A stretch of 57,361 nt of DNA from Gryganskiella cystojenkinii (Eukaryota > Mortierellomycota > Mortierellomycetes > Mortierellales > Mortierellaceae): contig JAAAIG010000147.1 of assembly GCA_015852425.1 (NCBI GenBank), positions 1-57,361 on the forward strand. The letters run 5' to 3'. A program made the position numbers and the translations under genes. This document shows positions 21,016 through 49,961 of this stretch, one piece after another. The notes beneath the pieces were generated by a model. That model made no database searches and was not told the DNA's origin. It saw only the letters and a program-made list of their open reading frames with translations. How positions within the stretch are numbered: position 1 is the stretch's first letter; each line of letters begins with the position of its first letter.

Positions 21016-22689
21016 ATGTCCCATGCACTGGACAAACCTGAAATAAGGGATCTCATCGCTCGGGTTCTCAGTCTTCATGACCTGACCCAATGTGCCCAAG
21101 TGTCCAGGTCGTGGAGATCGTCGTTCGAACCCTGGGTCTGGTACGAGTTGAAAATCAGCTCCTTTGAGGGCAACTGGAAACTCGTTCATCAGGCCCTCCA
21201 GCGTCATCGCGAAGCTGTTAAGAGAGTCCGCATCATTGCAATGCCAAAGAACTCGTTTTTCCCGGATATGTCCTTTCCGCGCCTCAAACGTCTCCATCTC
21301 CGCTACAAGATCCTCCCTGGGTCGTTTCTCAATCAACATCGATCGATGCTCACTCACCTGGATCTTAATTACGACTATTGGCACGTTGGCTCAAGTCGTG
21401 ATCACAGCTTGCACTGGCAAGCGGCGTCGTCCTGTCCTTCTTTGACATCCCTTACCATGCATAACATTAATATCACACCAGCTGTTTGGCCCTCTTTCTA
21501 TGATCTCTGGTCCCGCCTCCGCCAACTCCACCTGTACAACCTTCGTATGGCTTTGACTCTCGATGACAATAACACTCAAGACCAAGGAACCCAGGTCATG
21601 CCTCCGCCATCCTCTTTGGCCTCGTCGTCTCCGATTTCAGTCGAACCGTTCTTCAGGAATCTCCCCTGCTCATCAACGATCAGAGACCTGGGCCTCTTCC
21701 ACCTGGGCCTCTTCCGCCGCCAGATGGTCCCAACCTGGTTTAGCGAGGGCTCCCAAACCACCGAATACCTGTCACTTTTGAGATCCTGCCCAGAAATTGA
21801 ATCTTTTTCATGTGCTGGCTATGGTTTCGGCAATTGTCGTAATGGGATGGGAGACAGTCTCGCAGAGACTCTTCGCGATCGTTGTCCTAAACTGGTCAAG
21901 TTGTCCATGGACCAGGTGGATGCGTTGTCGAATGATAAAATACGTCCGGTCATGCTTATGCTCCGCAGTGAAGAAGAAAACCGTCGAAGTCCTATCAAGT
22001 CTCTGTCGATGCAAGGATCCCTATTTTCAGATCATTGTTATCAGGAACTCGCTTCATTCTCTTTTTGGGCAATCAACCTGGAGACGCTCGAGCTGGAGTG
22101 TGCACTGTCGGTTAAGAGTCACATGGTCCATGATTTGCTCTGTTCTCTCCCGAATCTCAAAACGTTTTCAGCCCAGAGGTTGTTTGAACGCGATCTTTTA
22201 GTAGATCCTCGACCATGGGTCTGTCTCGGTCTGATCCGTTTCAAGATCTTGATCATGGATCCGATCATCACAGAGGCAAGACCTGACCACTCGTCGTCGT
22301 CACCACCACAGCCGCTGCTGACTTTGTCAGGTTATCCTGTAGAAAGCACAAGGAATGCGATTCTGCAACGGATCGGGAAAACCTTCAGATCTTTGAAATA
22401 TATGTCCCTGACGAGCGATTACGCACAGTCCCAGTTTGGACTCGATCATGGGTTAGAGTTCCTGTCGGATCTGGTTGCGATGGAAGGGCTAGAGTTCTAT
22501 CCGGGAGAGGATCCAAGATTAACAGATCAGGATATCCGATGGATGCTGGCGCATTGGCCAAGATTACGGTATATTGTGGGACCTCTCCATGGAGAGGATA
22601 GAAAGGTCCAGCATGGTCTGGAGAGGGTGTTGCGAGCGCATGGGGTTCGAAGGAGCGCAGATGATTGTAAAAGTGTCGGGATCTTTTGA
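21016..22689 (+). CDS. F-box-like/LRR protein, copy A
   Basis: Single-exon gene, 557 residues. The F-box-like motif is at residues 4-45 (ALDKPEIRDLIARVLSLHDLTQCAQVSRSWRSSFEPW), the part that would bind Skp1 in an SCF ubiquitin ligase. The body is a series of irregular leucine-rich repeats (FPRLKRLHLRYKIL, LRQLHLYNLRMAL, LETLELECALSV) that would choose the substrate. It carries the family's C-terminal signature: RPWVCLGLIRF near residue 400, then DIRWMLAHWPRLRYIVGPLH and HGVRRS close to the end. It is the first of the array and the most diverged from D and E. There is no signal peptide or membrane segment. Function is inferred from the fold only. Confidence 0.85.
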   Translation: MSHALDKPEIRDLIARVLSLHDLTQCAQVSRSWRSSFEPWVWYELKISSFEGNWKLVHQALQRHREAVKRVRIIAMPKNSFFPDMSFPRLKRLHLRYKILPGSFLNQHRSMLTHLDLNYDYWHVGSSRDHSLHWQAASSCPSLTSLTMHNINITPAVWPSFYDLWSRLRQLHLYNLRMALTLDDNNTQDQGTQVMPPPSSLASSSPISVEPFFRNLPCSSTIRDLGLFHLGLFRRQMVPTWFSEGSQTTEYLSLLRSCPEIESFSCAGYGFGNCRNGMGDSLAETLRDRCPKLVKLSMDQVDALSNDKIRPVMLMLRSEEENRRSPIKSLSMQGSLFSDHCYQELASFSFWAINLETLELECALSVKSHMVHDLLCSLPNLKTFSAQRLFERDLLVDPRPWVCLGLIRFKILIMDPIITEARPDHSSSSPPQPLLTLSGYPVESTRNAILQRIGKTFRSLKYMSLTSDYAQSQFGLDHGLEFLSDLVAMEGLEFYPGEDPRLTDQDIRWMLAHWPRLRYIVGPLHGEDRKVQHGLERVLRAHGVRRSADDCKSVGIF

Positions 22690-22931
22690 TGACAGGCAGC
22701 GCCTTTGAGTTCGCGTTGCAAAATTGAATAAAGTTTTTTTTTAAAAAAATGGGATTTTCAGGGGCAAAAAAAAAACGTCAATTACATTCTTCACAACGAA
22801 AAGCAGCTTCAAGAAAAAAGTCGTCCTGAAATTACTATATAATTCCTGAATAAATCGTCAACTACATTCTTTTTCTTGCATCATTCAAAGGAATCCAACA
22901 AAAAAAATAAACCGATTTCCAGACCTCGGAC

Positions 22932-24557
22932 ATGCCATCCCCACTCGATCTTCCCGAGATAAGGACCTACATTTCGCGCTTTCTCTGTCCGGGCGACCTT
23001 GCACAATGTGCTCTTGTCTCAAAGGACTGGCGCAGCTCTTTCGAATGTCACATCTACCACAACATCATCCTCCGGTCAACCCCGCGCAGCGACAAGGTTC
23101 TTCCCAGACTCACGCTCGAGCGCCACCTTTGCGACCTCAAAAAACTCGACCTAAACCTCTCTGACAAAAACCTATTTATCACTCTTGAAGACCTGGCTTT
23201 TCCATACCTCAGACACCTCGTCCTTTATATGAACAGACCGGCTGCTCTTTATATGTTAAGACCAGCCTATCGATCCGATTTTATCTTGCGACATCGTCTG
23301 AATCTCACACGCCTTGAACTCTATCTCCTCCATGATCCCAAAGCCCGAGATAACCCGGTCGAGCTATGGGAAACAGCTGCATCTTTACCTGCACTGACGG
23401 ACCTCACCGTGTCCAGGATCAATATCACGCCCAATGTCTGGCCAAGTTTCCATTGCCTCTGGTCTCGCTTGACCCGTCTCCACATCACAGGCCTCTATTT
23501 TGTGACCACAATAGATGATAACGACAACACAAACAGCAACTCGACCTCGCCTTCGTTATCCTCACCCAGGGACATTTTTCAGGGTCTTGGTTCCAGTCGC
23601 ATCAAAGAGATGTCCTGGACTAATCTCATCGGAGTGGTCAAGCCGGACAGTATTCTCCTTTTTCTCGAGGCCTGTCCTGATCTCGAAACCTTCCGCTGGA
23701 ACCATTTCCCGCACACTTTTCCAAAGGTCAAGATGGGCGAACGTCTTGCGTATTACACCAGACATTGCCCGCAATTGACTAAGCTGACTTTGAGTATGGG
23801 TGTCTACAATGAGGAGAACGTGCTCCTTCCCTTCTTGAAAGCAAGGATGGAAGGCCCCTTTCGGCCGCTCAAGGAACTCTCTGCGAATGGAATGCTCCTG
23901 GGCAACGTTTCGATGCAACAGATCGTGGCCAATTACGACTGGTCCATGGCTCTCAGGGTTCTGGATTTGGAGAGTTCTACTACGGTCTTGTCCCAGATGG
24001 GCCACACGCTGTTATGCAGCGTGCCGGGCCTTCAAGACTTTTCGGTGGGTTTGCTCAGGGAGACTGATTTCGTAAAGGATGCTCGACCTTGGGTCTGTCT
24101 GGGGTTAACCCGTCTTTGCGTTGGTATCGAATTGGACCCTTCAACGTGGATCGTTCCTTCTACCTCTTCCGTTTCTTCTTTCTCGTTCTCCCAAGGTCTG
24201 TTCCAACGGATTGGCAAGCTCACCAGCTTGAAGTCTCTTGAATTCCCCCACAGTGTATGTCTTAATGTCTTGTCATCGGAACGGTACCAGCTTAGACTCG
24301 ATTACGGGTTAATGTTTATGACCGGATTGCGACAATTGCGGCTGTTCAAAGTACGGCGCTATTTCATGAGCCAGGATGGACTGAGATTGACGCGAGCGGA
24401 TGCTCAATTGATGATACAGACTTGGCCTCAGTTACGGTGCCTCATAGGCGTACTCCACTCTGATCCTACAGAGAATAAGTTTCTGAGGGGATGGTTCCAC
24501 GATCGCGGTGTTGAATCAAAGGACGGTCCAGACACGTTGGAAGTTCGTCTAGGTTAA
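22932..24557 (+). CDS. F-box-like/LRR protein, copy B
   Basis: Single exon, 541 residues, 242 bp after copy A on the same strand. F-box-like N-terminus is MPSPLDLPEIRTYISRFL followed by CPGDLAQCALVSKDWRSSFE. LRR segments include LKKLDLNLSDKNLF, FPYLRHLVLYMNRP and LTRLHITGLYFV. It has a Ser/Thr/Asn-rich insert near residues 195-215. The C-terminal signature is present (RPWVCLGLTRLCVGI; DAQLMIQTWPQLRCLIGVLH), ending GVESKDG where relatives have GIRR. The spacer before it holds an imperfect direct repeat (CGTCAATTACATTCTT at 22777 and CGTCAACTACATTCTT at 22856). Confidence 0.85.
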   Translation: MPSPLDLPEIRTYISRFLCPGDLAQCALVSKDWRSSFECHIYHNIILRSTPRSDKVLPRLTLERHLCDLKKLDLNLSDKNLFITLEDLAFPYLRHLVLYMNRPAALYMLRPAYRSDFILRHRLNLTRLELYLLHDPKARDNPVELWETAASLPALTDLTVSRINITPNVWPSFHCLWSRLTRLHITGLYFVTTIDDNDNTNSNSTSPSLSSPRDIFQGLGSSRIKEMSWTNLIGVVKPDSILLFLEACPDLETFRWNHFPHTFPKVKMGERLAYYTRHCPQLTKLTLSMGVYNEENVLLPFLKARMEGPFRPLKELSANGMLLGNVSMQQIVANYDWSMALRVLDLESSTTVLSQMGHTLLCSVPGLQDFSVGLLRETDFVKDARPWVCLGLTRLCVGIELDPSTWIVPSTSSVSSFSFSQGLFQRIGKLTSLKSLEFPHSVCLNVLSSERYQLRLDYGLMFMTGLRQLRLFKVRRYFMSQDGLRLTRADAQLMIQTWPQLRCLIGVLHSDPTENKFLRGWFHDRGVESKDGPDTLEVRLG

Positions 24558-24895: not shown

Positions 24896-26506
24896 ATGCC
24901 TTCTCCGCTTGGTATCCCCGAAATCCTCTGTCTCATCACGCGGTACTTGACCCAGCAACAGCTAACGACTTGCGTGTGCGTATCGCAAGATTGGAACCTT
25001 CTGTTTGGTGGTTTCGTCTGGCGCGACCTGAAGGTCGTCCCTCTCAAAGATCCCGGTACCATCTCTCTGCCCTGGAAGACCGTGGAACGAAACCTGAATG
25101 ACATTGAAGTTCTCGATTTCAGGTCTTTGGAAGACTGCTACCCAGATCGCCCATATAGTGATCGCGTTCGCGTCGAGCGCGCTGATTTTGAACGCTGGGA
25201 CTGTCCATACCTCAAGAGTCTCAGTTTCCGTATGGACGTCTATCGTACTCTTGGACAACCCGATCCTATCCTCCGTTACCCGATGCTTACACATTTGGAC
25301 TTTGGTTCTGTCGAATATATCACGGGTCTTCATAACGGCACCATTTGGTCCGCCGCAGCTTCCTGTCCATTGCTCCAGTCCCTTTCGGTAACCAAAGTCG
25401 ATCTTGTCTCCAGGGACTGGTCTCATTTCTATGCACTGTGGTCTCGTCTCCGCCGTCTTCATCTGCGCAAGTTGGGCATCCACACAAGGAATATCTTTGT
25501 GGGCAATGGACTTGTTATCTCTGGAGCTCCAGAGACCTTCTTTCAAGGTCTGGGTCCCTCCAAACTTCAAGAATTAGGACTCTTTGACCTCCATGGTCTG
25601 AACGGGATCAACGGTCAACTCTGGTTTCTGAGTCAGTGTCCGGAACTCGAGAGATTTCTCTGGCATCATTCTTCTCGGATTCAAGGTGATCGAAAAAGCC
25701 TTGGTGAACATCTTGCGACGCGAACCTCGGACTGCCCTAGACTCGTCCATGTGTCACTAAATGTCTCGTCGCGATTTTACGTGGCGACAGACGATCATCT
25801 TTTGCCGCTCTTGCTCGCCAAAAGAAATTTTCGCTCATCTCTACAACCTCTTCAAGAGTTGATTCTCCATGGAAACGTGTTTGGGACTCAATCCGATATT
25901 GAGCTTCGAACCCACGCCCATGCGTCAACACTCCGGATCCTAGAGTTGAAAAACCTGACCAGGTTAACAAGCTATGCGGCGCACAGGCTGCTGTGTCAGC
26001 TACCAAACCTGGAAGCCTTCTCTGCACCGCATCTTTACAACGACGATATGCAATACGAGAGCGAATACCGCCCTTGGGTTTGTACACGTCTGAATCGATT
26101 GTGGGTCGGACTGGCTTGGAGGCATAATATGGTTAATAGCAGTTCGAGTTATGGTCTTTTCAGGCGACTGGGTATGCTCACGGAACTCCGATCACTTACA
26201 GTGTCGAGGTATGCGATGCATGGTGAACCGCATAGAGGTTACTACCATGTTGGGTCTTCTCCGTTCGGCCGTGCGCTTCGGTCACTGGACGAGCTGACTC
26301 AACTGGAGAGTTTCGATCTGACGGATACAAAGCAAGCGTTCACGAAGGAAGACGTGGTTTGGATGGCAGACCACTGGCTCTCGCTGAGATTTGTCACTGG
26401 CTCTCTCCATTTCGATGCAGATAATGATGGGCTATTGAGGGCGATCTTGGAGGATCGTGGGATTCGTCAACAGCCTGATCGTCCGACTCCGATCCGGATC
26501 TGTTGA
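24896..26506 (+). CDS. F-box-like/LRR protein, copy C
   Basis: Single exon, 536 residues. F-box-like motif MPSPLGIPEILCLITRYLTQ, then QQLTTCVCVSQDWNLLFGGF. LRR blocks include LRRLHLRKLGIHTRN and LQELGLFDLHGLNGING, plus the FLWHHSS motif that recurs in copies D and E and in the pseudogenes. C-terminal signature: YRPWVCTRLNRLWVGLAW, DVVWMADHWLSLRFVTGSLH, DRGIRQQ. Its 3' part shares a 26-bp stretch (26135-26160) exactly with 32500-32525, where it abuts a duplicated segment. Confidence 0.85.
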   Translation: MPSPLGIPEILCLITRYLTQQQLTTCVCVSQDWNLLFGGFVWRDLKVVPLKDPGTISLPWKTVERNLNDIEVLDFRSLEDCYPDRPYSDRVRVERADFERWDCPYLKSLSFRMDVYRTLGQPDPILRYPMLTHLDFGSVEYITGLHNGTIWSAAASCPLLQSLSVTKVDLVSRDWSHFYALWSRLRRLHLRKLGIHTRNIFVGNGLVISGAPETFFQGLGPSKLQELGLFDLHGLNGINGQLWFLSQCPELERFLWHHSSRIQGDRKSLGEHLATRTSDCPRLVHVSLNVSSRFYVATDDHLLPLLLAKRNFRSSLQPLQELILHGNVFGTQSDIELRTHAHASTLRILELKNLTRLTSYAAHRLLCQLPNLEAFSAPHLYNDDMQYESEYRPWVCTRLNRLWVGLAWRHNMVNSSSSYGLFRRLGMLTELRSLTVSRYAMHGEPHRGYYHVGSSPFGRALRSLDELTQLESFDLTDTKQAFTKEDVVWMADHWLSLRFVTGSLHFDADNDGLLRAILEDRGIRQQPDRPTPIRIC

Positions 26507-26704: not shown

Positions 26705-27061
26705 ATGCACTCGCCATTCGACCTTTCAGAGATCAGACATCTAATTACTATTTCATTGTCGCGTCATTCACCACCCGCGTCCGCGTCGCACACGCATGAC
26801 ACGTACATTTTCCTGAATACATCTAGAGTGAACTGAGGATTACACCTGGGTCTCGAGTCAATTCTCTGGCACCACGGTCGCGGCGAGAACGAGGGTGATC
26901 GATACGACCTCGGACGGCATCTTATCAATCGATTCCAGAATTGTCCTCGACTTGTATGGTTGTCCTTGAAGGTCTATTTTATCCCATTGAAGAACGAGCT
27001 GGCCAAGTTTTAACCCTGAGAATTAATCCTCCAGCGAAACTCGAGTCCTGACTGTAACAGG
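26705..27061 (+). pseudogene. F-box/LRR pseudogene with internal deletion
   Basis: Opens with ATG and MHSPFDLSEIRHLIT, a clear family N-terminus, then loses frame after about 16 codons. From about 26857 a mid-gene fragment reads LWHHGRGENEGDRYD... NCPRLVWLSLKV and stops at TAA after LAKF, matching the FLWHHS...CPRLV part of copy C. The F-box tail and first LRRs are missing, so a deletion joined the two pieces. Most of it (26744-27061) is duplicated at 32526-32845. Confidence 0.8.
26744..27061 (+). repeat. Duplicated ~320-bp F-box pseudogene segment, copy 1
   Basis: Closely matches 32526-32845 over its full length with scattered substitutions and a few single-base indels, in direct orientation. 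Shared landmarks are CATTGTCGCGTCATTCACCA near the start and TAACCCTGAGAATTAATCC near the end. Confidence 0.88.
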
Positions 27062-27066
27062 AAGCA

Positions 27067-27639: not shown

Positions 27640-27867
27640 GTAAAGAAGTTTGCTCTATTGTTCATGTAACATAATAAACTCTTCCCAACAAAACGACAGA
27701 ATCGGCGGCAAATTCTCAAAGTTTTCTTGTTCTTTTTGTCCCCCCTCTCGTTCTTTTCTTCATACAACTCATTCTTCATCCTAAGTTCATCTTCCCAAGA
27801 ACCCAACCCATACCCTTCAACTTTCAACGTTTCAACAGTCTCGTTTTACGCACAACATCACTTCACA

Positions 27868-31451: not shown

Positions 31452-32488
31452 TTATCTTACTCTATCACCTTTGGTCCTGTCGAGACAGGTAGTGGCAACA
31501 TATAATCGAATCTCGGGGAGGTTCTTTAGAAAGCGATGTCGAGGTAAGCTGAGGCGTGCAGAAAGGCTACTATGAACAACATATTCATTCGACTGCCGGA
31601 GGTTCTCAGCCTTATTGAATAAAACGGCCTCCCGATACAGAGCTGATGTATTAAACGATGTTTTTCTGGTCACCTCGCCTCCAACACCCGCGACAAGCTC
31701 GCCCGCGTTCAGGAGCCCACCTCGGAAATCTCGGAGACTAGGAAAGGTACGCAGGATCTCATGAGCCATCCAACTCTCGGTTTCATTGCTGAGATGCAAG
31801 ACCTCGAGAATATTGAAATTCAAGATCCCAATATGAGCGTCAGGAACAATCCAACGCCGGAGACCTAAGGGACAACCTCTCAAGATCTGTACCAAGATAT
31901 TGTCGCTGAGAATAATCGGGCGGTAGAGATTATTGACACTTTCGACAGACAATTCGATCGATACCAGCCCTCGTCGTAAAAAGTCTACCAACCGTACCAG
32001 GAATGGGGAACTTCCAGTGTTCTCTCTGCCTCCTAGATAACATTTGGTCATGGGCTAGACGATCGATGCAAGTTTCGGGCAGCATTCGAATAATCTCAGT
32101 TGATGTTCCCAGGACATAAACGATTGGGAACTATTTGCGGAAAGTTCTCTCAGTTTTTGAAAAGACAGGAGTCCTTTGGGTCGAAGGGCTCCTTTGTTTC
32201 AACGAGGACAGAAGGCCAACAGTTGTCCAATGTTAACGTCGTCAGCTTGGGTGCCAGAACGAGAAACCTTTAGGAAGCTGCCCTCGAGTGCAATATGTGT
32301 CATCTCTAGTGCTGTGATCCAGGGACAGGATAGGACGAGTTGTTGAAGGAGTCTTCGTGGATATCGACACAGGACAAGGCCTCATTCGAGAAACTGAGCG
32401 TGTGCAAGGCCGGGTTCTGTTGGAGGAGTCGTGCCGCGAACGAGTAGTCCTTGTCAAAGTTGCCACCGATTTCAATCTCTAGCCGCAA
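31452..32488 (-). pseudogene. LRR-type protein remnant, minus strand
   Basis: Read leftward, 32488-32306 gives MRLEIEIGGNFDKDYSFAARLLQ and ALHTLSFSNEALSC. The frame over 32051-31452 gives IGILNFNILEVLHLSNETESW, AHEILRTFPSLRDFRGGLLNAGELV and a longer tail. The spacing of Leu and the 'AHEIL..FPSLRDF' block match the LRR part of the array proteins (compare AHRLLCHLPNLESF). Frames change between the parts and no F-box start is visible, so it is dead. Its orientation is opposite to its neighbours. Confidence 0.6.
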
Positions 32489-32525
32489 GAGTTTTCGACA
32501 ATAGCAGTTCGAGTTATGGTCTTTT

Positions 32526-32845
32526 AATCACTCATTCATTGTCGCGTCATTCACCACCTGCGTCCGCGTCTCACACGCATGGCACGGACATTTTCCTGAA
32601 TTCATCTGGAGTGAACTGAGGATTGCACCTGGGTCTCGAGTCATTTCTCTGGCGCCACGTCGCGGCGAAATCGAGGGTGATCGACACGACTTTGGACGGC
32701 ATCTTATCAATCGAATCTATAATTGTGCTCGACTTGTATGGTTGTCCTTGAAGGTCCATTTTATCCCAATGAAGAGCGAGCTGGCCAAGTTTTTAACCCT
32801 GAGAATTAATCCTCCAGCGAAACTCGAGTCCTTGACTGTAACAGG
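32526..32845 (+). repeat. Duplicated ~320-bp F-box pseudogene segment, copy 2
   Basis: Second copy of 26744-27061. It begins exactly where a 26-bp match to copy C (26135-26160 = 32500-32525) ends, so the junction at 32525/32526 is chimeric. Confidence 0.88.
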
Positions 32846-33499
32846 CTTCCTGTTGGGGAGACAGTCTGTACGCCGACTTGAGACCCTATGGATCGACACT
32901 AAGGGTTCTTGACGTGAGGGACGTGATCCAGATCCACAGCCAGCAAGTCCATAGCTTGCTCTGTTCGTTCCCAAGGCTGGAATCTTTTTTCTGCCGATTT
33001 TATCGAGGACAAGGGTGTGCAAGCCGATCCTGGTCGTCCCTGGGTATGTCTGGGCTTGAAACGATTGTGGATTGGTATTGATTGGACGGGAACCTCAGTC
33101 GAGACCTTGGTATCGCCGAAGTACGAAGGGATTTTCAAGAGACTTGGAATGCTCAGAGACTTACGATCCTTAACGGTGGCGAGCTATGATCAACATCAAT
33201 CTTTTGGTGCTCCATGGGAGATGTTTGGGTTTGGTGATTATGACCAGCATCCCAAATTTGGTCTGTCGCTTCGGCTGTCCCTGGTTGATCTGGGTCACTT
33301 GGAGAAGTTGGACTTGACGGATACGAGACAAGAGTTCTCGGGGGATGTGAAGTGGATGATGGGGCACTGGCCTGCGTTAAAGTATGTCGTTGGTACTCTT
33401 TACGCGAGCCCTGAGGTCAACGTTCTGCTGAGACGGATATTGGAGGATCGAGGCGTTCGAAAGAACGTTGCTAGACTCCTGACGATCCTGATCTCTTAA
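32526..33499 (+). pseudogene. F-box/LRR pseudogene, 5'-truncated
   Basis: Lacks the F-box start. Mid-gene pieces are recognisable: NCARLVWLSLKVHFIP-type sequence near 32720-32780, then STLRVLDVRDVIQIHSQQVHSLLCSFPRLESF (32886-32990). A frame change near 33010 leads to an open C-terminal part (33017-33499), with RPWVCLGLKRLWIGIDW, DVKWMMGHWPALKYVVGTLY and DRGVRKN. The intact C-terminal frame implies the loss of function is not very old. Confidence 0.8.
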
Positions 33500-33883: not shown

Positions 33884-35452
33884 ATGTCATCTCTATTCAC
33901 TTACAGCGAAATCCGGAAATTCATTGCTCAATACCTTTCACAGCAAGATCTGGCAATCTGCGCTCGAGTGTCTCACAGTTGGCACGAGTTCTTTGAGTGC
34001 TTTGTCTGGCGCAGCCTTAAGGTGGTCGAGGACGAGTCTCCTGGAGTTGTTAGTGTGCCTTGGGCAATAATCAAATGCCATTTGGACGAGATTGAACAGG
34101 TCGATTATAGGGCCTCGCAGCGGTACGACTCTATCGAGAGATTGAACTGTCCTCGCCTCAAGAACCTCACACTTCGCCTCAACTCCTTCAACGGGCTACA
34201 AGAACATATCATCTTCCGTCACCAGACCCTCGTCCATCTGGACTTCGGCGCAAATCAATATATCACTGGAGCTCATAGCTTTACCTCGTTTTGGTCAACA
34301 GTCGCCTCCTGCTCCTCGCTTAGGTCCCTCTCTGTATCCAGGGTCGATGTTGCGCCCAGGTCTTGGGCGAGTTTCTGGTCCATTTGGTCACGCCTCACAA
34401 TTCTCCACCTGCGCGAATTGGGGATCCATACGTGGTATGAGAACGTGGCCGGCGCTGTCCCGGCCTCGGGTCCTAAATCCTTTTTCCAGGGCAGTGTCGA
34501 ATCCAGGATCCAAGAACTGGGACTCTTTGATATCCATGGATTGACAGGTATTGACAGCTACCTTTTGTTGACAAGCCTTTGTCCCAACCTGGAGACATTT
34601 CTCTGGCATCACACCAAAAAGCTCCGAGGAGGTCGAGGAGGGATGGGAGCCCTTCTTACAGATCGAACATCGACCTGCCCTCGACTTGTCAATTTTTCTT
34701 TAAAAGTCAAGTCCTCGACCACGAACGATGAACTCCTCCCTTTCCTGACCGCAAGACTGGTTCATGCTTCCCCGATCAAGGAGTTGAATGTCGGAGGGAA
34801 CGCCGTTGGACTTCGATCTGGAATGGAACTGTTGGAACGTGATGGGTCCAGTCTCAGGATCTTGGAGTTGAAGGATTGCCCCGGAGTGAGCAGTGTGATG
34901 GCACATCGATTGCTCTGTCATTTACCAAACCTCGAATCCTTCTCGGCACCGCTGCTTCAAGACTGGGATGTAAAATTCGACCACCAACGGTCCTGGGCTT
35001 GTTTAGGGCTGAAGAAACTATGTCTTGGTCTCCATTGGATGGGCACCTCGGCCGCGCAGGTGCCCTCGCCCACTACTGACCGTGGTCTCTTCAAGAGACT
35101 GGATAAACTTGGATCGTTGAGGTCGCTCACGGTGACAAAGTATCAGTTCCATCAAAGTGACTCTCTCCAAGATGCCTATGCCACCTCGAATCCGACTTTT
35201 GGTCAAGTACTCCAATCCTTACCTGGCCTGGTTCGCTTAGAGACATTGGATATGACGGATACGAATCAAGCCTTCACCGAGCAAGATGTGTTATGCATCA
35301 CAGAGAATTGGCCCTTGCTGAAAAGTATTGTCGGTACCCTCCATGTGAGCCCTGAGATCGACGTTCGGCTGAGAAAGATGTTTGAGGACCGAGGTGTCCG
35401 TAAGAACGTTGCTCAACCCGGGACGGTCCTGATCTGTGGAATGAATGATTAG
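33884..35452 (+). CDS. F-box-like/LRR protein, copy D
   Basis: Single exon, 522 residues. N-terminus MSSLFTYSEIRKFIAQYLSQ then QDLAICARVSHSWHEFFECF. LRR body includes LTILHLRELGIHTWY and IQELGLFDIHGLTGIDS, then FLWHHTKKLRGG. The stretch SSLRILELKDCPGVSSVMAH...LCHLPNLESFSAPLLQDWDV is nearly identical in copy E, so D and E are recent duplicates. C-terminal signature: RSWACLGLKKLCLGLHW, DVLCITENWPLLKSIVGTLH, DRGVRKN. The leader is CT-rich with a poly-T run just before the ATG. Confidence 0.87.
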   Translation: MSSLFTYSEIRKFIAQYLSQQDLAICARVSHSWHEFFECFVWRSLKVVEDESPGVVSVPWAIIKCHLDEIEQVDYRASQRYDSIERLNCPRLKNLTLRLNSFNGLQEHIIFRHQTLVHLDFGANQYITGAHSFTSFWSTVASCSSLRSLSVSRVDVAPRSWASFWSIWSRLTILHLRELGIHTWYENVAGAVPASGPKSFFQGSVESRIQELGLFDIHGLTGIDSYLLLTSLCPNLETFLWHHTKKLRGGRGGMGALLTDRTSTCPRLVNFSLKVKSSTTNDELLPFLTARLVHASPIKELNVGGNAVGLRSGMELLERDGSSLRILELKDCPGVSSVMAHRLLCHLPNLESFSAPLLQDWDVKFDHQRSWACLGLKKLCLGLHWMGTSAAQVPSPTTDRGLFKRLDKLGSLRSLTVTKYQFHQSDSLQDAYATSNPTFGQVLQSLPGLVRLETLDMTDTNQAFTEQDVLCITENWPLLKSIVGTLHVSPEIDVRLRKMFEDRGVRKNVAQPGTVLICGMND

Positions 35453-35656
35453 ATGGGGCGCTTTATTGCCCGAGACCCGAAAACGGCACATAATAACAGT
35501 CTTTCGCCATGGCGAAGTCACCGCAATTAAAAACTTTTTTTTTTTTTTTTTGCGTGAAAGAACAGTGCGCCATGACTGCATGATATTTATCTCTTCTTGC
35601 TCCTCCTTCAAATCCCCTCTACTTCAACTTTCATTCGGCAGCAGACTTTGAACCCG

Positions 35657-36127
35657 ATGCCCTCTCCACTCAGTCTTCCGGAAATCCACGAGATGATAGC
35701 TCGCTACCTTTCACAAAATGACTGACTTGGCTATTTGAGCGCGCGTTTCCCGCAAATGGATCGACTTTTTTAAATATTTCGTGTGGCGCGATGTATCCAG
35801 AAAGAGACCCTCGGCACCGTATCTCTTCCTTGGGCAGTAGTTGAGAGACACCAGAGCGAGGTTCAAAGTCTCAGCTTCGTCAAACCGGCGGAGGAATCTC
35901 ATGGTCAACAGAACTTGAAGCGAACGAATGTTGATCGATCGCACCTCGAACGTTTGACATTTCCGCACCTCAAACACCTAACCCTTCGTGTGGAACCGTC
36001 TGAACATTCACAGTTCCCATTCTTTCGAACAAACCTTACGCAACTGGACTTTCCTGAAAGAATGATACTGGAAAGTCGAGGAATTTTTCGACAACCAGGT
36101 AGTCCGGGTGCGATTTACATCTCCTGA
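35657..36127 (+). pseudogene. F-box/LRR pseudogene, N-terminal fragment
   Basis: Starts MPSPLSLPEIHEMIARYLSQND and hits TGA at once; one inserted base here would restore LAI.ARVS.KW. A second open frame (35783-36127) continues with the LGTVSLPWAVVERHQSEV block seen in copies C and D and FPHLKHLTLRVEPS, then ends after about 100 codons. The rest of the LRR body is missing. It has the normal promoter-side layout of an array gene, so it was probably once active. Confidence 0.82.
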
Positions 36128-36422: not shown

Positions 36423-37964
36423 ATGCAATCGCCATTCGACCTTCCTGAGATCAGGAATCATCTCTCCCAATTCCTCTCGCAACACGACGTAGCTGCCTGT
36501 GCACGCGTGTGTCGAGATTGGCATGAGTCCTTTAAATGTTTCATTTGGCGCAGCCTGAAAGTCGACATTGTGGCTGATGAAGGCACGATTCTGCCATGGG
36601 CGACTGTCGAGCCACATTTGGACGACATTGAAAACCTCGATTACAGGGGGGATTGGATCCGACACTATGCCCTCGAACGATTATCCTGCCCACGCCTCAA
36701 GATACTCACCCTTCGCCTGCAAACCTTCAACAGACCAGAACTTATCCTCCGTCACCAAATCCTCACCCATTTGGATTTCGGCGCCAATCCATTCACACCA
36801 CCTCACGATTTTTCCTCGTTTTGGTCAACCGTCGCGTCTTGCTCCTCGCTCAGATCCCTCTCCGTGTCCAAGGTGGATGTTACGCCCAAATCGTGGGAGT
36901 ATTTCTGGTCAGTGTGGTCTCGCCTGACGGTCCTCCATCTGCGCGAGTTGGGGATCCAGGCTACAGTCGGCTCTACTTCCTTCTTTCAAGATAGGAATGA
37001 CTCAAAGATAAAGGAGCTAGTACTCTTTAATATTCATGGTCTGAATGGTATCGATGGCTATCTCTCTTTCCTAAGCCTCTGTCCCGATCTCGAAACATTT
37101 CTCTGGCACCATTCCAAAGTGATTAGGGTGACCAGTAACAGTGGCGGAGGTGGACGAAAGAAAATGTGTGATCTTCTTATGGACCGAACTTCGACCTGCC
37201 CTCAACTCGTCAACTTTTCTCTCAAAGTCCCATCCTCGGTCTCGACCTTAACCAAAACCACCACCACCACTGATGATGAAATCGTCCCATTCTTGATCCT
37301 TCGAATGTGTCTTGCCCCGATTCAGGAGTTGACTCTCGGAGGCAGCCTGTTTGGGAGCCGATGCGGTCAAGAACTTTTGGAACAAGATGGGTCCAGTCTC
37401 AGGATATTGGAGCTAAAGGATTGTCCCGGGGTTAGCAGTACAATGGCTCATCAATTGCTCTGTCATTTACCGAACCTGGAATCCTTTTCTGCACCTCTTG
37501 TTCAAGACTGGGACGTGAAGCTTGATGGCGAGCATGACTGGGTCAGTTTAGGCCTGAAGAAGCTGTGTCTCGGTCTCGACTGGCTCGAAATCATGTCTTC
37601 TGTCACTGAAAACCACGGTCTCTTTAAACAACTCGGTCGACTCGCCGCTTTGAAGTCGCTCATGGTCACGAGGTATCGATGCCCTGTCTCGAAAGACCTT
37701 TTGGATACCTACACGCACTCGGCTTTGAGATTTGGTCAAGCGCTTCGGTCCTTGCCTGACTTGGAAACGCTGGATTTGACGGATACTACTCAAAAGTTCA
37801 TGGAAGAGGATGTGTCGTGGATGATGGACAATTGGCCGTCGCTCAAGGTGGTCACAGGCATGCTTCATTCAGACCAAGAGATGGATCTAGTTTTGAGAAC
37901 CATGTTTGAGAGCCAGGGCGTTCGGAAGACCGCGGCCAAACCCAGCAAGGTGTGGATCTCTTGA
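36423..37964 (+). CDS. F-box-like/LRR protein, copy E
   Basis: Single exon, 513 residues from ATG 36423. I prefer this start because MQSPFDLPEIRNHLSQFLSQ aligns with the other family starts; the frame stays open 51 codons further upstream (to 36270), but that part has no counterpart. F-box-like motif runs to CRDWHESFKCF. LRR blocks resemble copy D (LTVLHLRELGIQ, IKELVLFNIHGLNGIDG, FLWHHSK, RILELKDCPGVSSTMAH). It has a Gly-rich insert (SGGGGRKK) and a Thr run near the middle, absent in D. The end has DVSWMMDNWPSLKVVTGMLH and QGVRKT. Confidence 0.86.
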   Translation: MQSPFDLPEIRNHLSQFLSQHDVAACARVCRDWHESFKCFIWRSLKVDIVADEGTILPWATVEPHLDDIENLDYRGDWIRHYALERLSCPRLKILTLRLQTFNRPELILRHQILTHLDFGANPFTPPHDFSSFWSTVASCSSLRSLSVSKVDVTPKSWEYFWSVWSRLTVLHLRELGIQATVGSTSFFQDRNDSKIKELVLFNIHGLNGIDGYLSFLSLCPDLETFLWHHSKVIRVTSNSGGGGRKKMCDLLMDRTSTCPQLVNFSLKVPSSVSTLTKTTTTTDDEIVPFLILRMCLAPIQELTLGGSLFGSRCGQELLEQDGSSLRILELKDCPGVSSTMAHQLLCHLPNLESFSAPLVQDWDVKLDGEHDWVSLGLKKLCLGLDWLEIMSSVTENHGLFKQLGRLAALKSLMVTRYRCPVSKDLLDTYTHSALRFGQALRSLPDLETLDLTDTTQKFMEEDVSWMMDNWPSLKVVTGMLHSDQEMDLVLRTMFESQGVRKTAAKPSKVWIS

Positions 37965-38196: not shown

Positions 38197-38740
38197 ATGA
38201 CCCCTCCCCCACTCGACATTCACGAACCCAGGGACCCGTTGCGTTGCAGAGTACCTTTCACCTCGCAGCCTTGCGACATGTGCACACGTCTCTTTCATTC
38301 GTGTCGTGGGTTTGGAGAACCACGCGAACACGAATTTGAGGACACTCATAGCATGGACAGCAAGTTCATTCACGAGATACTTTTGCGCGTTACCGAACAA
38401 CACAAAACCTTTCACTCACTCGTAACTCTCAAACCGGAAAACTTTTACACTGGCCGGGTCGTCTGTACGAGTCTGAATGACTCGACGAGCGACATTGGTT
38501 CAATTTCTTCAACCGATTCTGTGGGGAGATTAATCGGAGGATCGGTAAGTACGTTCAGGTACCTAGTCGTCTGGATCAGACAAGGGTAATTCGTAGAGGT
38601 CTTTGGCTCGCTTGCTATGCAAGGACTGAAGAAAGTTGACATTCCATGGACGAAGGATCATTGGCCTCCATTTGCAAGGAAAACGAGAGGCTATGGAAGA
38701 TTTTGTTGCGGCACGGTGGATGTTAAAATAGGTAGTGGGC
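38197..38740 (+). pseudogene. F-box/LRR pseudogene, both ends with the middle lost
   Basis: Begins MTPPPLDIHEPRDP, then frameshifts; another frame there reads like AEYLSPRSLATCAHVSFIR. Near 38690-38725 the sequence reads RLWKILLRHGG, the counterpart of LWKILREHGIRR at the end of copy F. Some 1.1 kb of normal body is missing between, so it is a large internal deletion. The segment lies directly upstream of copy F. Confidence 0.7.
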
Positions 38741-38921: not shown

Positions 38922-40511
38922 ATGCCTTATGCACTCGAAATACCTGAACTCAGATTCCATCTTGCCCAATACCTGAATCGACCGTCCCTTGTCCATTGCG
39001 CTCTTGTCTCAAGGGACTGGAACGCAACCTTTCAAGACTGGATCTATCGAGAGATCAACACAGTCAATGAGGACATTCATCACAAGATTCATCTTCCAAG
39101 ATCAACTTTGGATCGTCACCTTCACGCTGTCAGGAAACTCGACCTGGACTGGAAAGATTCTAAAGTCCTTGCATCAAGCTCTCCATCTTTGACTTGTCCA
39201 AACCTCAAGTCGCTTAATCTTAAGCTCAATATATTTACCACGCGCGACTCTCTTATCTTGATCCACAATCATCGACACACAATCACCACACTCTCCCTCC
39301 GCGGCTTTCCATTGCCAGGCTTCACGGATATCCACGAGAGCTTGTGGCAGGCGGCAGCGTCCTGTTCGTTTCTCGAAATGCTCTGTATGTACAGAATTGA
39401 ACTGACACCAAAGGTCTGGCCCTGCTTTTGGTCCCTTTGGTCCCGCCTGACAGGTCTCCGCCTCACGTCCGTTGGACTGTTCACCCCTCCCGAGACCTCT
39501 CAACGATATGATAGCCATCAGCATCCAGATGGATACAATTCTTTCCTTCGGGGACGTTGTCCCTCAAGAATCAAGACGCTCGAAATGTCGAATGTCTCAG
39601 GTCTACCCTCCTTTGAGGATGATCTCCGTTTCTTGAGTTATTGCCCAGTCGTTGAAACCTTTCTCTGGACACCGATTTTCTATAAACGTGGTCGAGAGCT
39701 TCCGTACATGTCCTTGGGCAAAGAGCTAGTAGAGCGTACTCGAAGCTGCTCCAACCTCACCAGGCTCAAACTCAATATCGACAGCAAGGAACAGCAGGAC
39801 TGTCTCAAACTGTTTCTGGACTCCAGATTGCGCGATGACACCGAGATCATCGATGATGATAGTGGCGAGTCCAGCGAACGTATCAAGAACACGCTCCTTC
39901 CGCGGTCTTTGGAATCGCTGACGCTCTATGGTACTATCCTCTTTGACAGAGCCTGCTGTCAACTACTCGAGCGACAAGCTGGATCCACCCTGAGAACGCT
40001 GAAGTTGACCCTTGACATCGAAATTGATGGAAGGATGCTCCATCGGATTTTTTGCAGTTTACCGGCCTTGGAAAGTTTCACAGCATCCTCCTGGTTCAGA
40101 GCCGCGGATGACTTTTCAGAGTTCCCGGATCATCCTTGGGTCTGCAAAGGCATGAGCAAGTTGCAAATCAGTGCTCCTTTGCCTTCTCGTGAAGAGTACC
40201 AAGAAGAGGTTTATAGAAGAGTTGGTGTCACGTTCAAGAAACTGAGAGCTCTGAGGTACTTTGGAGGTCGAATTGACTGGACAAGGGTTCGTCGCCACCT
40301 CGGTGGTCTGCATTCGCTGGAGATCCTTGAAAGTTATAATGGGACGATGACGGAGGACGATGTTCGATGGATGATCGAGCATTGGACCGGGCTGGAATGC
40401 GTTCTTGGTAGTCTACATCCGGAACATGAAGTCGATGAAACGTTGTGGAAGATATTGCGGGAGCATGGTATTCGCCGAAATCTCGTTACTGGAGTCGTTC
40501 AGATCGATTGA
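38922..40511 (+). CDS. F-box-like/LRR protein, copy F
   Basis: Single exon, 529 residues from ATG 38922 (MPYALEIPELRFHLAQYL), chosen by alignment with relatives; the frame is open 54 codons upstream without similarity. F-box-like motif continues NRPSLVHCALVSRDWNATFQDWIYREI. LRR parts include VRKLDLDWKDSKVL, LKSLNLKLNIFTT and LTGLRLTSVGLF. C-terminal signature: DHPWVCKGMSKLQI, DVRWMIEHWTGLECVLGSLH, LWKILREHGIRRN. It has a charged insert (DDTEIIDDDSGESSERIK) around residue 310. Confidence 0.86.
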   Translation: MPYALEIPELRFHLAQYLNRPSLVHCALVSRDWNATFQDWIYREINTVNEDIHHKIHLPRSTLDRHLHAVRKLDLDWKDSKVLASSSPSLTCPNLKSLNLKLNIFTTRDSLILIHNHRHTITTLSLRGFPLPGFTDIHESLWQAAASCSFLEMLCMYRIELTPKVWPCFWSLWSRLTGLRLTSVGLFTPPETSQRYDSHQHPDGYNSFLRGRCPSRIKTLEMSNVSGLPSFEDDLRFLSYCPVVETFLWTPIFYKRGRELPYMSLGKELVERTRSCSNLTRLKLNIDSKEQQDCLKLFLDSRLRDDTEIIDDDSGESSERIKNTLLPRSLESLTLYGTILFDRACCQLLERQAGSTLRTLKLTLDIEIDGRMLHRIFCSLPALESFTASSWFRAADDFSEFPDHPWVCKGMSKLQISAPLPSREEYQEEVYRRVGVTFKKLRALRYFGGRIDWTRVRRHLGGLHSLEILESYNGTMTEDDVRWMIEHWTGLECVLGSLHPEHEVDETLWKILREHGIRRNLVTGVVQID

Positions 40512-40702
40512 ACTGATCAACAAGAGAATAGTGAAAAATGGTCTGTGAGGATCAGGCACGGTTGGATGGCAAGAGCACGTTGAATATTTCTGAGTAACTC
40601 GATAAATAAAACACAGACCCTACGTAGTTGTCAGAAAAGTGTTGACTTTTAAGACCTCTCCATCAATCAATCAGTCTATCAAGAAGAGAACATCTCTTCA
40701 TA

Positions 40703-41180
40703 ATGCCACTCCCTACACTGCACCGACCCAAGGTCAAGCCTATTCTCGCCCAGTACCTATATCGTCCATCCCTGGTCTGTTGTGCTCTTGTTTAAAGGGA
40801 GTGAAACGCAACCTTCAAGACTGGATTTACAGCGAGATCTCTACACCTTTGGCTGGGACTCTTGCCACAACGTCCATGTTCTTCCAAAGGAAACGTTTGT
40901 TTATCACTTTCACGCCTTCTGGAAACACAGTCTCGAAGTTTTACCGAACGCTCTTGACCCTGACCTGTCCACACCTGAAGTCTCTGCACCTTCATCTGCA
41001 CATTTTGGACGTGCGGACTTTGATCCATAATGATCAACGCATACTCACGCACCTTTTGCTCAGAAACTGCTTGCACAGGACTGGCTCGACTTGCAATGAG
41101 CATTTTACTGCTGGAGCATGGTTTCTGTCAAGATCTCATTCTTGGAGTTCAAATCGACTGAAGAAAGGAAAGGAAACATA
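40703..41180 (+). pseudogene. F-box/LRR pseudogene, N-terminal remnant related to copy F
   Basis: Starts MPLPTLHRPKVKPILAQYLYRPSLVCCALV and stops at TAA after a base change in the SRDW position. Later frames carry NLQDWIYSEIS, LTCPHLKSLHLHLHILDVRTLIHNDQRILTHLLLRN, matching copy F's ATFQDWIYREI and LTCPNLKSLNLKL...LILIHNHRHTITTLSLR. The body after this is lost. The close match and position make it a tandem duplicate of copy F. Confidence 0.82.
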
Positions 41181-45091: not shown

Positions 45092-46726
45092 ATGACTTCA
45101 GCATTCGACCTTCCCGAAATCAGAGAATGCCTCTCCAAGTACCTGACCCGCCACGATCTAGTTTCTTGCGCTCGTGTTTCCTCGGAGTGGAACAAGTCCT
45201 TTGAGTGGCACATCTGGACAGAACTGAACATCGGCCCTAAACCTCAAGATAAATCTGACTTTGTCACCGCCCTCCCAAGATCAATCCTTGACCGTCACAA
45301 GGACTCTATTCAAACTCTTGTCCTTCGCAAAACGTCAAGCAACGACCAGCAAGACCCTACCTTCTTTCTCCGAGATCTATACTGTCCTCGCCTCAAGAAC
45401 TTGGATGTCCATTGGAACAGCAGTTATCAGGAGCATCTCCTATTTCTTGGCCGTCATTCCCGAACGCTGACGCACCTCTCCGTCGATCTCTTTGTATTAC
45501 CAGGAACCGGTCAAGGGAGCGTAGACAGCGAGGACTTTTGGCAGCTCGCAAGTTCTTGTCTTTCTTTGGAATCGTTGACTGCAAGGAGGGTCTTTGTGAC
45601 AAACAACAGCTGGCCTACTTGCTGGAAGTTGTGGTCTCGGCTAACATGTCTGCGTCTCCGTCGTGTCGTTTTTCGCCTACTCGCAATGCAAAACAACGAT
45701 AACACATCGATGGGCAACAAAACCGGAGACATCATTACAGGTCCCCTCACCCTGCTCCTTGATGATAGCCCCTACACATCGACATCTATTAAGGATTTAG
45801 AACTGATCAATCTCGAAGGCCTCAGTCACTTTGAGGACCAACTCGCTCTTGCCCGGTTTTGCCCAGATCTCGAGACGTTTATTTGGGACGATACCTCTAC
45901 CGATGACCCGCCCTCGGTAAGAACCCAGTATCTGAAGGATCTAGCAAACTATTGTCCAAAGCTCAAGTCCTTGTCAGTACATGGTAGCTTCGAAGAGGAA
46001 GTGCATGGTGTCTATTCGTTCTTGCGAGCTCGACCTCATATTCCCTTGAAAGTCCTAGAAATACCCCACCATGCTTTCGGGGAACTACTGTGGCAAGTGG
46101 TCAAGGAAAATCATGCCTCCACACTCACTACTGTCGATCTCAGCTTCTCGCCCACGATCACGGGAGAATTGTCGCATGAGATCATGTGCGCGTTACCGAA
46201 TCTCGAATCATTGAAGGTTCCAACAATCAAGGACAGGGACCTGGTGCGAGATCGTCGACCCTGGATCTGTCACCGTTTGCAGCACTTGACCATCGGGTTT
46301 CAGTTTGTTGTTGAATCTCGAACTTTGTTTTCGCCCTTGTCCTCATCTTCATCCTCATCCTTGCCCGAAAAGGATAATCGAAAGATGGTCTTTGAGCGAT
46401 TGGGCACACTCCGGTTCCTTAAAACTCTGAACATTCGCGAACTCGATTATGATGTCCAACCTCTGGGAGGTTTACGATTCCAACTCAAGGACGGTCTCGA
46501 CTTCTTGAAGACTTTGCAACAATTGGAGGAGCTGGAACTCTGGAACGGCAATCAGGAGCTGTCCAAGACGGATGTTCAGTGGATGGTGGACCACTGGCCC
46601 AGACTGAGGATTCTTTTTGGAAAGCTGCACAGTTCTAAGGTCTCGTCGACTGCTTACACGAGGCTGTTGTTGGCTCATGGAATCAAACCTTGGGCTTCGA
46701 TCCCAAAGGCGGTTTATATAAGTTAA
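45092..46726 (+). CDS. F-box-like/LRR protein, copy G
   Basis: Single exon, 544 residues. F-box-like start MTSAFDLPEIRECLSKYLTR, then HDLVSCARVSSEWNKSFEWHIW. LRR body includes LKNLDVHWNSSYQEH, IKDLELINLEGLSHFED and LTTVDLSFSPTITGE. C-terminal signature: RRPWICHRLQHLTIGFQF, DVQWMVDHWPRLRILFGKLH, AHGIKPW. A Ser run (SSSSSSSLPEKD) interrupts the last third. It stands about 4.5 kb from its nearest array neighbour, the gap being filled by the homeodomain-like and RRM genes. Confidence 0.86.
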   Translation: MTSAFDLPEIRECLSKYLTRHDLVSCARVSSEWNKSFEWHIWTELNIGPKPQDKSDFVTALPRSILDRHKDSIQTLVLRKTSSNDQQDPTFFLRDLYCPRLKNLDVHWNSSYQEHLLFLGRHSRTLTHLSVDLFVLPGTGQGSVDSEDFWQLASSCLSLESLTARRVFVTNNSWPTCWKLWSRLTCLRLRRVVFRLLAMQNNDNTSMGNKTGDIITGPLTLLLDDSPYTSTSIKDLELINLEGLSHFEDQLALARFCPDLETFIWDDTSTDDPPSVRTQYLKDLANYCPKLKSLSVHGSFEEEVHGVYSFLRARPHIPLKVLEIPHHAFGELLWQVVKENHASTLTTVDLSFSPTITGELSHEIMCALPNLESLKVPTIKDRDLVRDRRPWICHRLQHLTIGFQFVVESRTLFSPLSSSSSSSLPEKDNRKMVFERLGTLRFLKTLNIRELDYDVQPLGGLRFQLKDGLDFLKTLQQLEELELWNGNQELSKTDVQWMVDHWPRLRILFGKLHSSKVSSTAYTRLLLAHGIKPWASIPKAVYIS

Positions 46727-46999: not shown

Positions 47000-47760
47000 A
47001 ATGGTTTCGAATAGTCAGCATGGCCAGTAGTATTCCAGGAGACATGGTGGTTATGAGGTGCAAGTCCATTTTCGAATTTTTGTTACTATTGTTATCCAGC
47101 ATCTTGTGGAAACGAACACCGTTCTCTTCCAGCAAGTCTCTCGGTATCCTGTCTCTACCGGGAAATCGATGCTCGCGAACGACTCTCAACTCTGGCCGGT
47201 TCTCTTGGATTCATTCAATTTCTTTGAACCCAGCATCAAGCCCGATCGCACCCAAGACCTTTAATCGTCTCAAAGTTCTTAGCCGATTCAGCTCTCCTCC
47301 TCCCCTTTTTCTTGCCTCGAGCAATAGAACCATAATTCATGCTTGTCAGTGTAAACTCCGTCAAAGACCCTATCGCCCTAGAAACACGGACTGAGATTTC
47401 GGCGTCTGCATTAAAATATCCAGGACCATGACCTTTAACTTGTTACAGACCCAGGCTCGATCGTCGTCATCCAATCTATCCGCATCCCCATATTTTATGG
47501 CTTTAATAACCTCCAGGTTCTGCACCGTACATATAACCACGTGTATAAACCGGCCTGTGAAATCAAGGTACTGTCCGAGATCGAAGACTTTGGGAGTCAT
47601 TGTTGTCCAGGATATTTTCAGAATCGACCACGAAAGTATGTTGAAATTGGTGCTGTTCAGGACTATTTCCGTCAATCCGGGGATTGTCTCCAATTCATTC
47701 TGAAAAAAGTTCGATCCGGAGAGGTCGAGGGCTTTCAATTATGGCCAGAGTAAAGTCGAC
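47000..47760 (-). pseudogene. LRR-type protein remnant with array C-terminal signature, minus strand
   Basis: Read leftward, MKALDLSGSNFFQNELETIPGLTEIVLNSTNF (from 47738) is an LRR run, followed by RAWVCNKLKVMVLDI, the WVCxxL signature of the array family. After a stop near 47370 another frame continues LNRLRTLRRLKVLGAIGLDAGF, then an in-frame TAG (47210 area), then NRPELRVVREHRFPGRDR. At least one frameshift and one nonsense change are present. It is closest in style to copy H, its minus-strand neighbour. Confidence 0.7.
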
Positions 47761-48180: not shown

Positions 48181-48653
48181 GAGTGAAGGGGTTCGGACCC
48201 GCTGCCGTTACAAGTGTCGACAACCGATCAGGATCTCACAGTGACGCGTCCGTCAGATTAACATGATCCTCGATCGAATGTGCTGTCAACGTTTCAGAAT
48301 GACGCTGGATTATAATCGATATCAATGACAACAACTATCCGAAGATCTTCTCATATCGCCATGTCGAATTTTTGGGCAAGATAAAGGACACGAACGACGT
48401 TCGGATTCCGGTACGTTCGGACGACCATCAATCTCAAGTATCAAAAAAAGGAGGCTAAAGATCCTCATAATGCGACGAACAAAAATCCTCTGATTGATGA
48501 AACAAATAAACAGGTTCTCACCGCAAACATACTCCTCGCTCATTTTGACAGGCATGAAAAAGAAAGTTTCCAAAATATATGTTATGGTGAAGTTTATAGG
48601 GAAATACATGACAATGTTTGCTTGTAAAATTAAACCCGAGTGCATAGAACACG
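48181..48653. other. Spacer downstream of copy H
   Basis: AT-rich, no supported gene. It lies where copy H's missing C-terminal third would be expected, but I could not find the family's HWP..L..V.G.LH signature there in any frame. Confidence 0.4.
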
Positions 48654-49961
48654 TCATGATTGTAGAGTTTCTGCTAGAAAGCCAACCGCCACCTTCCGAA
48701 GCTTCGGCAATGATCCAAACCGCTCATATATAGCCTGCTCAATCCTACACTTTCTTCCGACTGAATCTTGTGGCCCAAGCTCCTGTCCCTGCTCCTGCCC
48801 CTTATCAATCGACGTCAAGGATAACGGATCCGTGTTAATGATAATCCTGAGTTGAAGTTCCTCCAGCCCATGACAGACCCAAGTTCGCCCATTCAGGATG
48901 TCGTCAGCCATCATCTTCTGCCCTCTTAGAACCTTCAGCTTTGGACAGGATGATAGGATCTCCTGGAGCATTATGCTTGTGAATGCACTTGAGCGAATAT
49001 CCAAGTGTTGCAGAGAAACGAAATGTCGCTTCAAAGAAGCAAACGTTTCAACCCCAACAGCAGGGCTATAGGAGACAACCCGTTGCAGCCGACTTTCTTG
49101 TGTGAGTCCTCCTATGTGATCCAGCGCCATTGCCAAATCCCTATCCAGAAGGCCATGAAATGACAGGTCTAGAGAGTGAAGACGTGGCCATGTGTTCTTT
49201 CGGAATAGTTCTGCAGCCTTCTCCGATGGATATTCTAAATCGCCAGACCAAGTCAGGATCCTAAGTTCAGGGCATTGACTTAGGAACCGAAGTTGCTCTA
49301 CTGTTGTCATCCGTACGAGTGAGTCGAATTCGACATGATGCAGGTTCTTGAAACAGAATCCGGCTAGGAACTCGTCTCTGCGAATAGACATAGGTAACTG
49401 GAGCCAGTAGGCGGACGATAGATCGCCTGCCCAGCGTATGCTACTGCATCTCAGCTCTTTGTATCCGCCAAGCCATCGGAAGGTGTCGATAGTCTTGGAG
49501 TCTTGGAGGGCTTGCCAGAATGGGTGCAATGGGACCGAGCGGATCTCGGACAAACTGAGTTCCTTGAGAACGGGACAAGTATCCGCCGATATGAACAGAC
49601 CCAGGAGCACGGCCTGCTCGTCCTCTTGAGCTTCCTGAATGTAGGACCAATTGCCTAGTTTGAGCGTTTTCAGGTTCCTGAAATGGTATCCACGAAGATA
49701 TAACTCTTTGGGGATCGGTCCGGCAAGAATAAGATGGTGCACGTGGCCAATATTGTTGACAAAAGTATTGAAGGATTCAATGGGGACTAAACGGGCAAAC
49801 GGCAAGCGTATGCGAGGCTCCATGTGAACTTCTTGAAAGAGGAGGGGAAAGAGTGCTGCGTGGAATGAGCGCGAAACGCGAATGCAGACTGTCAGGCTGT
49901 GACAAGACATGAATCGACCGATGTTGAACACAACCTCGGGTAGGCTAAGGGCTTTTTCCAT
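48654..49961 (-). CDS. F-box-like/LRR protein, copy H, short C-terminus
   Basis: Single frame of 435 residues on the opposite strand to the other intact copies. N-terminus MEKALSLPEVVFNIGRFMSCHSLTVCIRVSRSFHAAL is a diverged F-box-like motif. LRRs are well kept (LKTLKLGNWSYI, LKELSLSEIRSV, LHSLDLSFHGLL, LQHLDIRSSAFT). It has GRTWVCHGLEELQLRI, the family signature, but stops after LPKLRKVAVGFLAETLQS and lacks the last ~100 residues. It may be a truncated functional form or an early pseudogene. It belongs to a different subfamily from copies A-G, with LSLPEVVF in place of DLPEIR. Confidence 0.78.
   Translation of the reverse strand: MEKALSLPEVVFNIGRFMSCHSLTVCIRVSRSFHAALFPLLFQEVHMEPRIRLPFARLVPIESFNTFVNNIGHVHHLILAGPIPKELYLRGYHFRNLKTLKLGNWSYIQEAQEDEQAVLLGLFISADTCPVLKELSLSEIRSVPLHPFWQALQDSKTIDTFRWLGGYKELRCSSIRWAGDLSSAYWLQLPMSIRRDEFLAGFCFKNLHHVEFDSLVRMTTVEQLRFLSQCPELRILTWSGDLEYPSEKAAELFRKNTWPRLHSLDLSFHGLLDRDLAMALDHIGGLTQESRLQRVVSYSPAVGVETFASLKRHFVSLQHLDIRSSAFTSIMLQEILSSCPKLKVLRGQKMMADDILNGRTWVCHGLEELQLRIIINTDPLSLTSIDKGQEQGQELGPQDSVGRKCRIEQAIYERFGSLPKLRKVAVGFLAETLQS

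Follow-up and report, generated by a model that had tools for sequence, protein, structure and literature searches.

A tandem array of predicted F-box/leucine-rich repeat genes and their decayed copies in the fungus Gryganskiella cystojenkinii

Contig JAAAIG010000147.1 (C162) of Gryganskiella cystojenkinii (assembly GCA_015852425.1; 35.0 Mb in 1050 contigs) was analysed over its whole length of 57,361 bases, hereafter the window. It carries seven intact genes, A to G, each a single open reading frame (ORF) of the plus strand, between positions 21016 and 46726, together with seven decayed copies (relics) and a further gene, H (Table 1). A to G probably belong to a lineage-specific family of F-box/leucine-rich repeat (LRR) proteins evolving by birth-and-death, with predicted roles as receptors of SCF (Skp1-cullin-F-box) ubiquitin ligases. 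The true starts of E and F are likely the Met codons that precede the F-box rather than the first in-frame ATG.

Table 1. Genes and relics of the array, with positions in the window
Feature	Position	Strand	Description
Gene A	21016..22689	+	F-box/LRR, 557 amino acids; ORF and family homology; Pfam F-box-like 22.4 bits, below cut-off 24.3
Gene B	22932..24557	+	F-box/LRR, 541 amino acids; ORF and family homology; Pfam F-box 20.7 bits, above cut-off 20.5
Gene C	24896..26506	+	F-box/LRR, 536 amino acids; clusters with D and E in tree
Relic	26705..27010	+	F-box start, then mid-LRR piece; tblastn and profile
Relic	31455..32198	-	Two collinear pieces, one frame; profile E 5e-6 and 3e-4; no tblastn match at E<=0.001
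Relic	32505..33496	+	Three frames, C-terminal third best preserved; E down to 5e-43; tblastn and profile
Gene D	33884..35452	+	F-box/LRR, 522 amino acids; Pfam F-box-like 25.6 bits, above cut-off
Relic	35576..36124	+	F-box and first repeats, two frames; tblastn and profile
Gene E	36423..37964	+	F-box/LRR, 513 amino acids counted from Met preceding F-box; family homology, structure model
Relic	38201..38422	+	F-box piece only, weakest relic; profile E 7e-4
Gene F	38922..40511	+	F-box/LRR, 529 amino acids counted from Met preceding F-box; DNA copies on C1016, C246 and C791
Relic	40646..41178	+	5' part of F-like copy, two frames; tblastn and profile
Gene G	45092..46726	+	F-box/LRR, 544 amino acids; sister is C874 gene (support 92/77)
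Relic	47373..47747	-	Late LRR piece; tblastn and profile
Gene H	48654..49961	-	Remote relative without C-terminal end

The proteins A to G are homologous from end to end, with identities of 27-58% (27-34% for most pairs, 42-43% for C against D or E, and 57-58% for D against E), and their alignment contains 47 invariant columns. Six of the seven begin their F-box with the motif PE(I/L), D carrying SEI; the W-x-C motif is likewise found in six, with S in place of C in E, while D-x-x-W-M occurs in five, B and D deviating. The C-terminal signature is family-wide and, according to the alignment and a structure model, is located in the terminal repeats and the cap helix. In a sample that covers part of the genome's family matches, the W-x-C tryptophan is kept in all 52 aligned members. 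The signature, which the original note could assign to no standard LRR cap, reaches no Pfam cut-off in A-H.

The same prediction had counted H as an eighth gene with common ends, which holds for A to G but not for H. Only local matches of 19-27% identity relate H to the other seven, and a search with D as the query gave no match to it at E<=1e-3. H possesses the W-x-C motif, then ends about 75 residues later, and none of the three frames read downstream of it showed the terminal motif. It could be a copy of another subfamily that was truncated.

All seven proteins A to G have the same architecture, namely, an N-terminal F-box, a solenoid of about 15 LRRs that follows it, and the conserved C-terminal end. 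B and D exceed the Pfam F-box cut-offs, A, C, E, F and G remain below them, and H has no match. The domain is nevertheless recognisable at the level of the family: it was found at E<=0.01 in 17 of 25 members, a family gene on contig C842 passes the F-box-like cut-off more clearly (32.9 bits), and the F-box profile of the family matches solved F-boxes. In both profile and fold searches the best matches were F-box/LRR receptors of SCF ligases, as had been proposed. The F-box modelled alone (60 residues; predicted local distance difference test score, pLDDT, 70.8) gave a single unrelated Foldseek match (E 5.4). The host genome contains three Skp1 loci above the Pfam cut-off. These profile and fold matches support the placement of A to G with the F-box/LRR (FBXL) proteins, and from fold and family we infer that service in SCF ligases, with Skp1 docking, ligase activity and targets of their own, is the most likely function.

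The receptors FBXL2, FBXL5, FBXL17 and SKP2, and TIR1, COI1 and MAX2 of plants, likewise have an N-terminal F-box directly followed by an LRR horseshoe, and chains of the FBXL/TIR1 type are the best profile and fold matches of the family. However, the identity to them is only 10-16% in the structural alignments listed, the W-x-C motif and the terminal (D/E)xxW...W end fall below every Pfam cut-off in A-H, and the function of the proteins is a predicted one.

Decayed copies had been predicted at seven sites, and family pieces were indeed detected at all of them. With A-H masked, 52 family proteins used as tblastn queries matched the window 75 times at E<=0.001 and the reversed-sequence control not at all. 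When 1365 stop-free pieces were searched with a profile, with 1510 pieces of reversed sequence as the control (best E 0.027), pieces at each site outscored the best control piece. Five of the seven relics were recovered by both methods, those at 31.5 kb and 38.2 kb being missed by tblastn. The relic predicted at 47000 is present on the minus strand but at a slightly different position, 47.4-47.7 kb; by tblastn it is closest to family members that do not belong to the clade of A to G. A weak third piece of the minus-strand relic at 31.5 kb lies at 32309-32527 (E 0.012), and the segment 38354-38463 is 83% identical to DNA of contig C791. The presence of pieces in up to three frames and the loss of middle parts argue against introns, rather than frameshifts, as the cause of the interruptions. 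In each of the relics at 26.7 kb and 32.5 kb the sequence passes directly from the F-box into the mid-LRR part, and 26742-27061 and 32525-32845 are 91.6% identical over 322 bases; thus, the most similar local duplicates were probably copied from a gene that had already decayed.

The family extends far beyond this contig. Searches of the genome gave 94 matches with B, 109 with E, 92 with H and 153 with the last 186 residues of G; these are counts of pieces rather than genes, since some matches are two pieces of one gene, and they are bounded by the number of candidates scored. The 150 matches listed for the C-terminal module of G are distributed over 97 contigs, 29 of which have more than one. 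The F-box-like domain (PF12937) has at least 150 genome matches, all above the cut-off (150 scored of 561 candidates). Family genes at two places of contig C146, 5678-9835 (L025) and 49059-53216 (L026), have identical scores and opposite orientation, pointing to either a large inverted repeat or an artefact of assembly.

In the protein database, where about 8000 candidates were scored per search, seven remote matches were found in all, the nearest foreign ones coming from Linnemannia elongata, Mortierella species and Actinomortierella; two others were D of the window itself. By these remote homologues the host is probably placed in or near the Mortierellaceae. Of the best two foreign proteins, one shares 23% identity with A over 60% of its length and the other 28% over 34%. 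E alone as the query, with the same number of candidates scored, gave no foreign match.

A maximum-likelihood tree was built from 52 rows, comprising A-H, 41 genome ORFs and three foreign proteins. The ORFs were those of 54 matching that had a score above 100 and a span above 380 positions; ORFs shorter than 250 amino acids were left out, so that the set leans to open copies. A to G group with one gene of contig C874 and one of contig C1016 (support 96/86), and H lies outside this clade on a long branch of unsure position. Within the clade, F pairs with the C1016 gene (100/100) and D with E (100/98), and the sister of G is the C874 gene. Since the closest relatives of F and G reside on other contigs, the array belongs to a clade with copies elsewhere rather than forming a closed group; the seven tandem plus-strand genes stand, but the array is not purely local.

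DNA-level copies of F with 75-80% identity and shared flanks were found on three contigs. The copy on C1016 has an open frame, that on C246 contains one stop, and the two on C791 contain stops. The DNA common to F, C1016 and C246 extends about 175 bases upstream and 100 bases downstream of the coding frame, while on C791 the stretch shared with F continues into the next relic. Because the flanks are shared, no poly-A run is seen at the shared 3' end of the copies, and the C791 stretch runs on into that relic, copying of F at the DNA level is likelier than retroposition. The duplicates of several ages evident from the tree and the DNA copies, together with the relics, support gene birth-and-death, as originally proposed.

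D and E had been described as near-identical in blocks and recently duplicated. This description does not hold: their best DNA blocks are 76-79% identical, the synonymous divergence (dS) is 1.44, and none of the blocks stands out by a low synonymous difference (permutation P 0.60). The last two results rule out both a recent duplication and gene conversion.

Selection was assessed by pairwise Nei-Gojobori comparisons. The whole-gene ratio of nonsynonymous to synonymous divergence (dN/dS) is below 1 in all six computable pairs, three more being saturated; it is 0.19 in D/E, and 0.46 in F and its C1016 sister (dS 0.41, dN 0.187). In the latter pair the F-box is the most constrained segment (0.075), with values of 0.35-0.76 in the others.

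These averages bear on the possibility that most copies change neutrally in number and sequence, with a kept function in only a few of A to G. Such genomic drift is possible, though clearly the less probable reading. It would account for the relics in the array, the broken F-type copies on C246 and C791, the relaxed LRR part of F/C1016, and a codon-position pattern in F that resembles that of the broken copies. The same signs, namely, tandem copies, pseudogenes, relaxed purifying selection and a best-kept F-box, are read as drift in a study of lineage-specific F-box genes of plants (PMC3030570), from which the present case differs in concerning a fungal family and a single genome. However, the low ratio in D/E and the conservation of buried and concave positions suggest that selection kept D and E, and the F-box of F/C1016 is strongly constrained.

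An adaptive arms race, in which positive selection diversifies the LRR faces as they track allorecognition partners, mobile elements or parasites, is unlikely. Windows of 45 codons were scanned in three pairs (F/C1016, D/E and L021/L023), with the ratio set to zero where dS was saturated, so that any excess there is hidden. Three of 54 windows exceed 1.5 in F/C1016, at codons 46-90, 257-301 and 266-311; when the LRR codons were shuffled (2000 trials), 4.6% of the trials reached this count and 5.25% the highest value. In the first window dN is 0.33 (dS 0.20), above the gene-wide value, but the other two overlap each other and fall in a synonymous dip (0.05 at codons 265-304, P 0.021). None of 51 windows in D/E and none of 56 in L021/L023 are above 1, although this is a weak test, as dS is 1.44 and 1.30 and saturated in some windows.

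Exposure classes were derived from the secondary structure of one model (E) and column hydrophobicity, with exposed strand as a stand-in for the concave face and helix for the convex one. In D/E, differences affect 13 of 58 positions on exposed strands and 47 of 93 on exposed helices (P 6e-4); the direction is the same in C/D (P 9e-4) and C/E (P 0.004), these three pairs not being independent. One binding face thus seems conserved among C, D and E. The other ten of the 13 pairs weigh on the opposite side: none is significant singly (P<0.05), yet in all ten exposed strand changes at least as often as helix, and eight disjoint pairs outside C/D/E, pooled after the single-pair results were known and with C/D/E excluded on purpose, give an odds ratio of 1.41 (P 0.012), which falls to 1.15 (P 0.27) when D/E is added. 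Outside C/D/E the predicted binding face may thus be mildly freer, or favoured, to change. The rapid adaptive diversification originally envisaged is not shown; the data do not separate relaxation from positive selection. In a study of the Caenorhabditis F-box expansion (PMC8665587), which is alike in tandem duplication, purifying selection on the F-box and a freer C-terminal part, 73 of 95 C. elegans pairs have peaks over 1.5; here, one of three scanned pairs has such windows, two of its three lying in the synonymous dip.

It is very improbable that the proteins are LRR adaptors outside SCF with a helix bundle no longer binding Skp1, as the sub-threshold F-box scores of most of A-H and the fruitless fold search with the F-box would allow, given the strong constraint on this segment in F/C1016, the match of its profile to solved F-boxes and the clearer score of the C842 gene.

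Under the preferred reading, a birth-and-death family of SCF receptors, each protein, encoded by a single open frame, would belong to a large, lineage-specific family. Its N-terminal F-box would dock to Skp1, and the LRRs would form a horseshoe closed by a family-specific end composed of the W-x-C repeat, the final repeat and the cap helix. The horseshoe would bind a target for ubiquitylation by the SCF ligase. The copies arise through duplication of DNA, some placed locally and some on other contigs, and many then decay.

By analogy, the array looks like the duplicate-and-decay turnover known from plants and worms rather than a recent adaptive burst. With it, an early-diverging fungus joins the plants and nematodes whose F-box families expand and decay, and at present the array documents one more case of a process already known. 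Another early-diverging fungus likewise has lineage-specific F-box and LRR genes, whose likeness to the present family is one of description. No paper titled on F-box families in Mortierellaceae was found in the one literature collection searched.

Fungi of the Mortierellaceae type often host endobacteria. Should some members of the family recognise foreign or non-self proteins, the family would be a candidate recognition system in such hosts. Still more speculatively, and with low probability, A to G could represent a Mortierellaceae class of SCF receptors with dozens to probably more than 100 members per genome. This class would be marked by the invariant tryptophan of W-x-C and by a W...W terminal cap, and would act inside the cell as a recognition repertoire, either in allorecognition or to defend the host against mobile elements or endobacteria; C/D/E and similar subgroups would hold on to one ligand face, which the rest let diverge.

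Three further ORFs inside the array, beginning at 27727, 41951 and 43237, have no similarity to the family. The first (27727-28785; 352 amino acids) has no Pfam match and sits between two relics; its 3' part contains a repeat pair, 28353-28433 and 28729-28809, with 77% identity. The second (41951-42859; 302 amino acids), located between F and G, has a sub-threshold homeodomain match (E 0.037). The array is flanked by a CBS-PB1 ORF (19736-20599) on one side and an RNase H-like fragment (52497-53855, minus strand) on the other. The latter matches RNase H and zf-RVT, both below the cut-off, and is probably a decayed non-LTR (long terminal repeat) retrotransposon; a 727-column stretch of it is 67% similar to DNA of contig C157 (locus L037).
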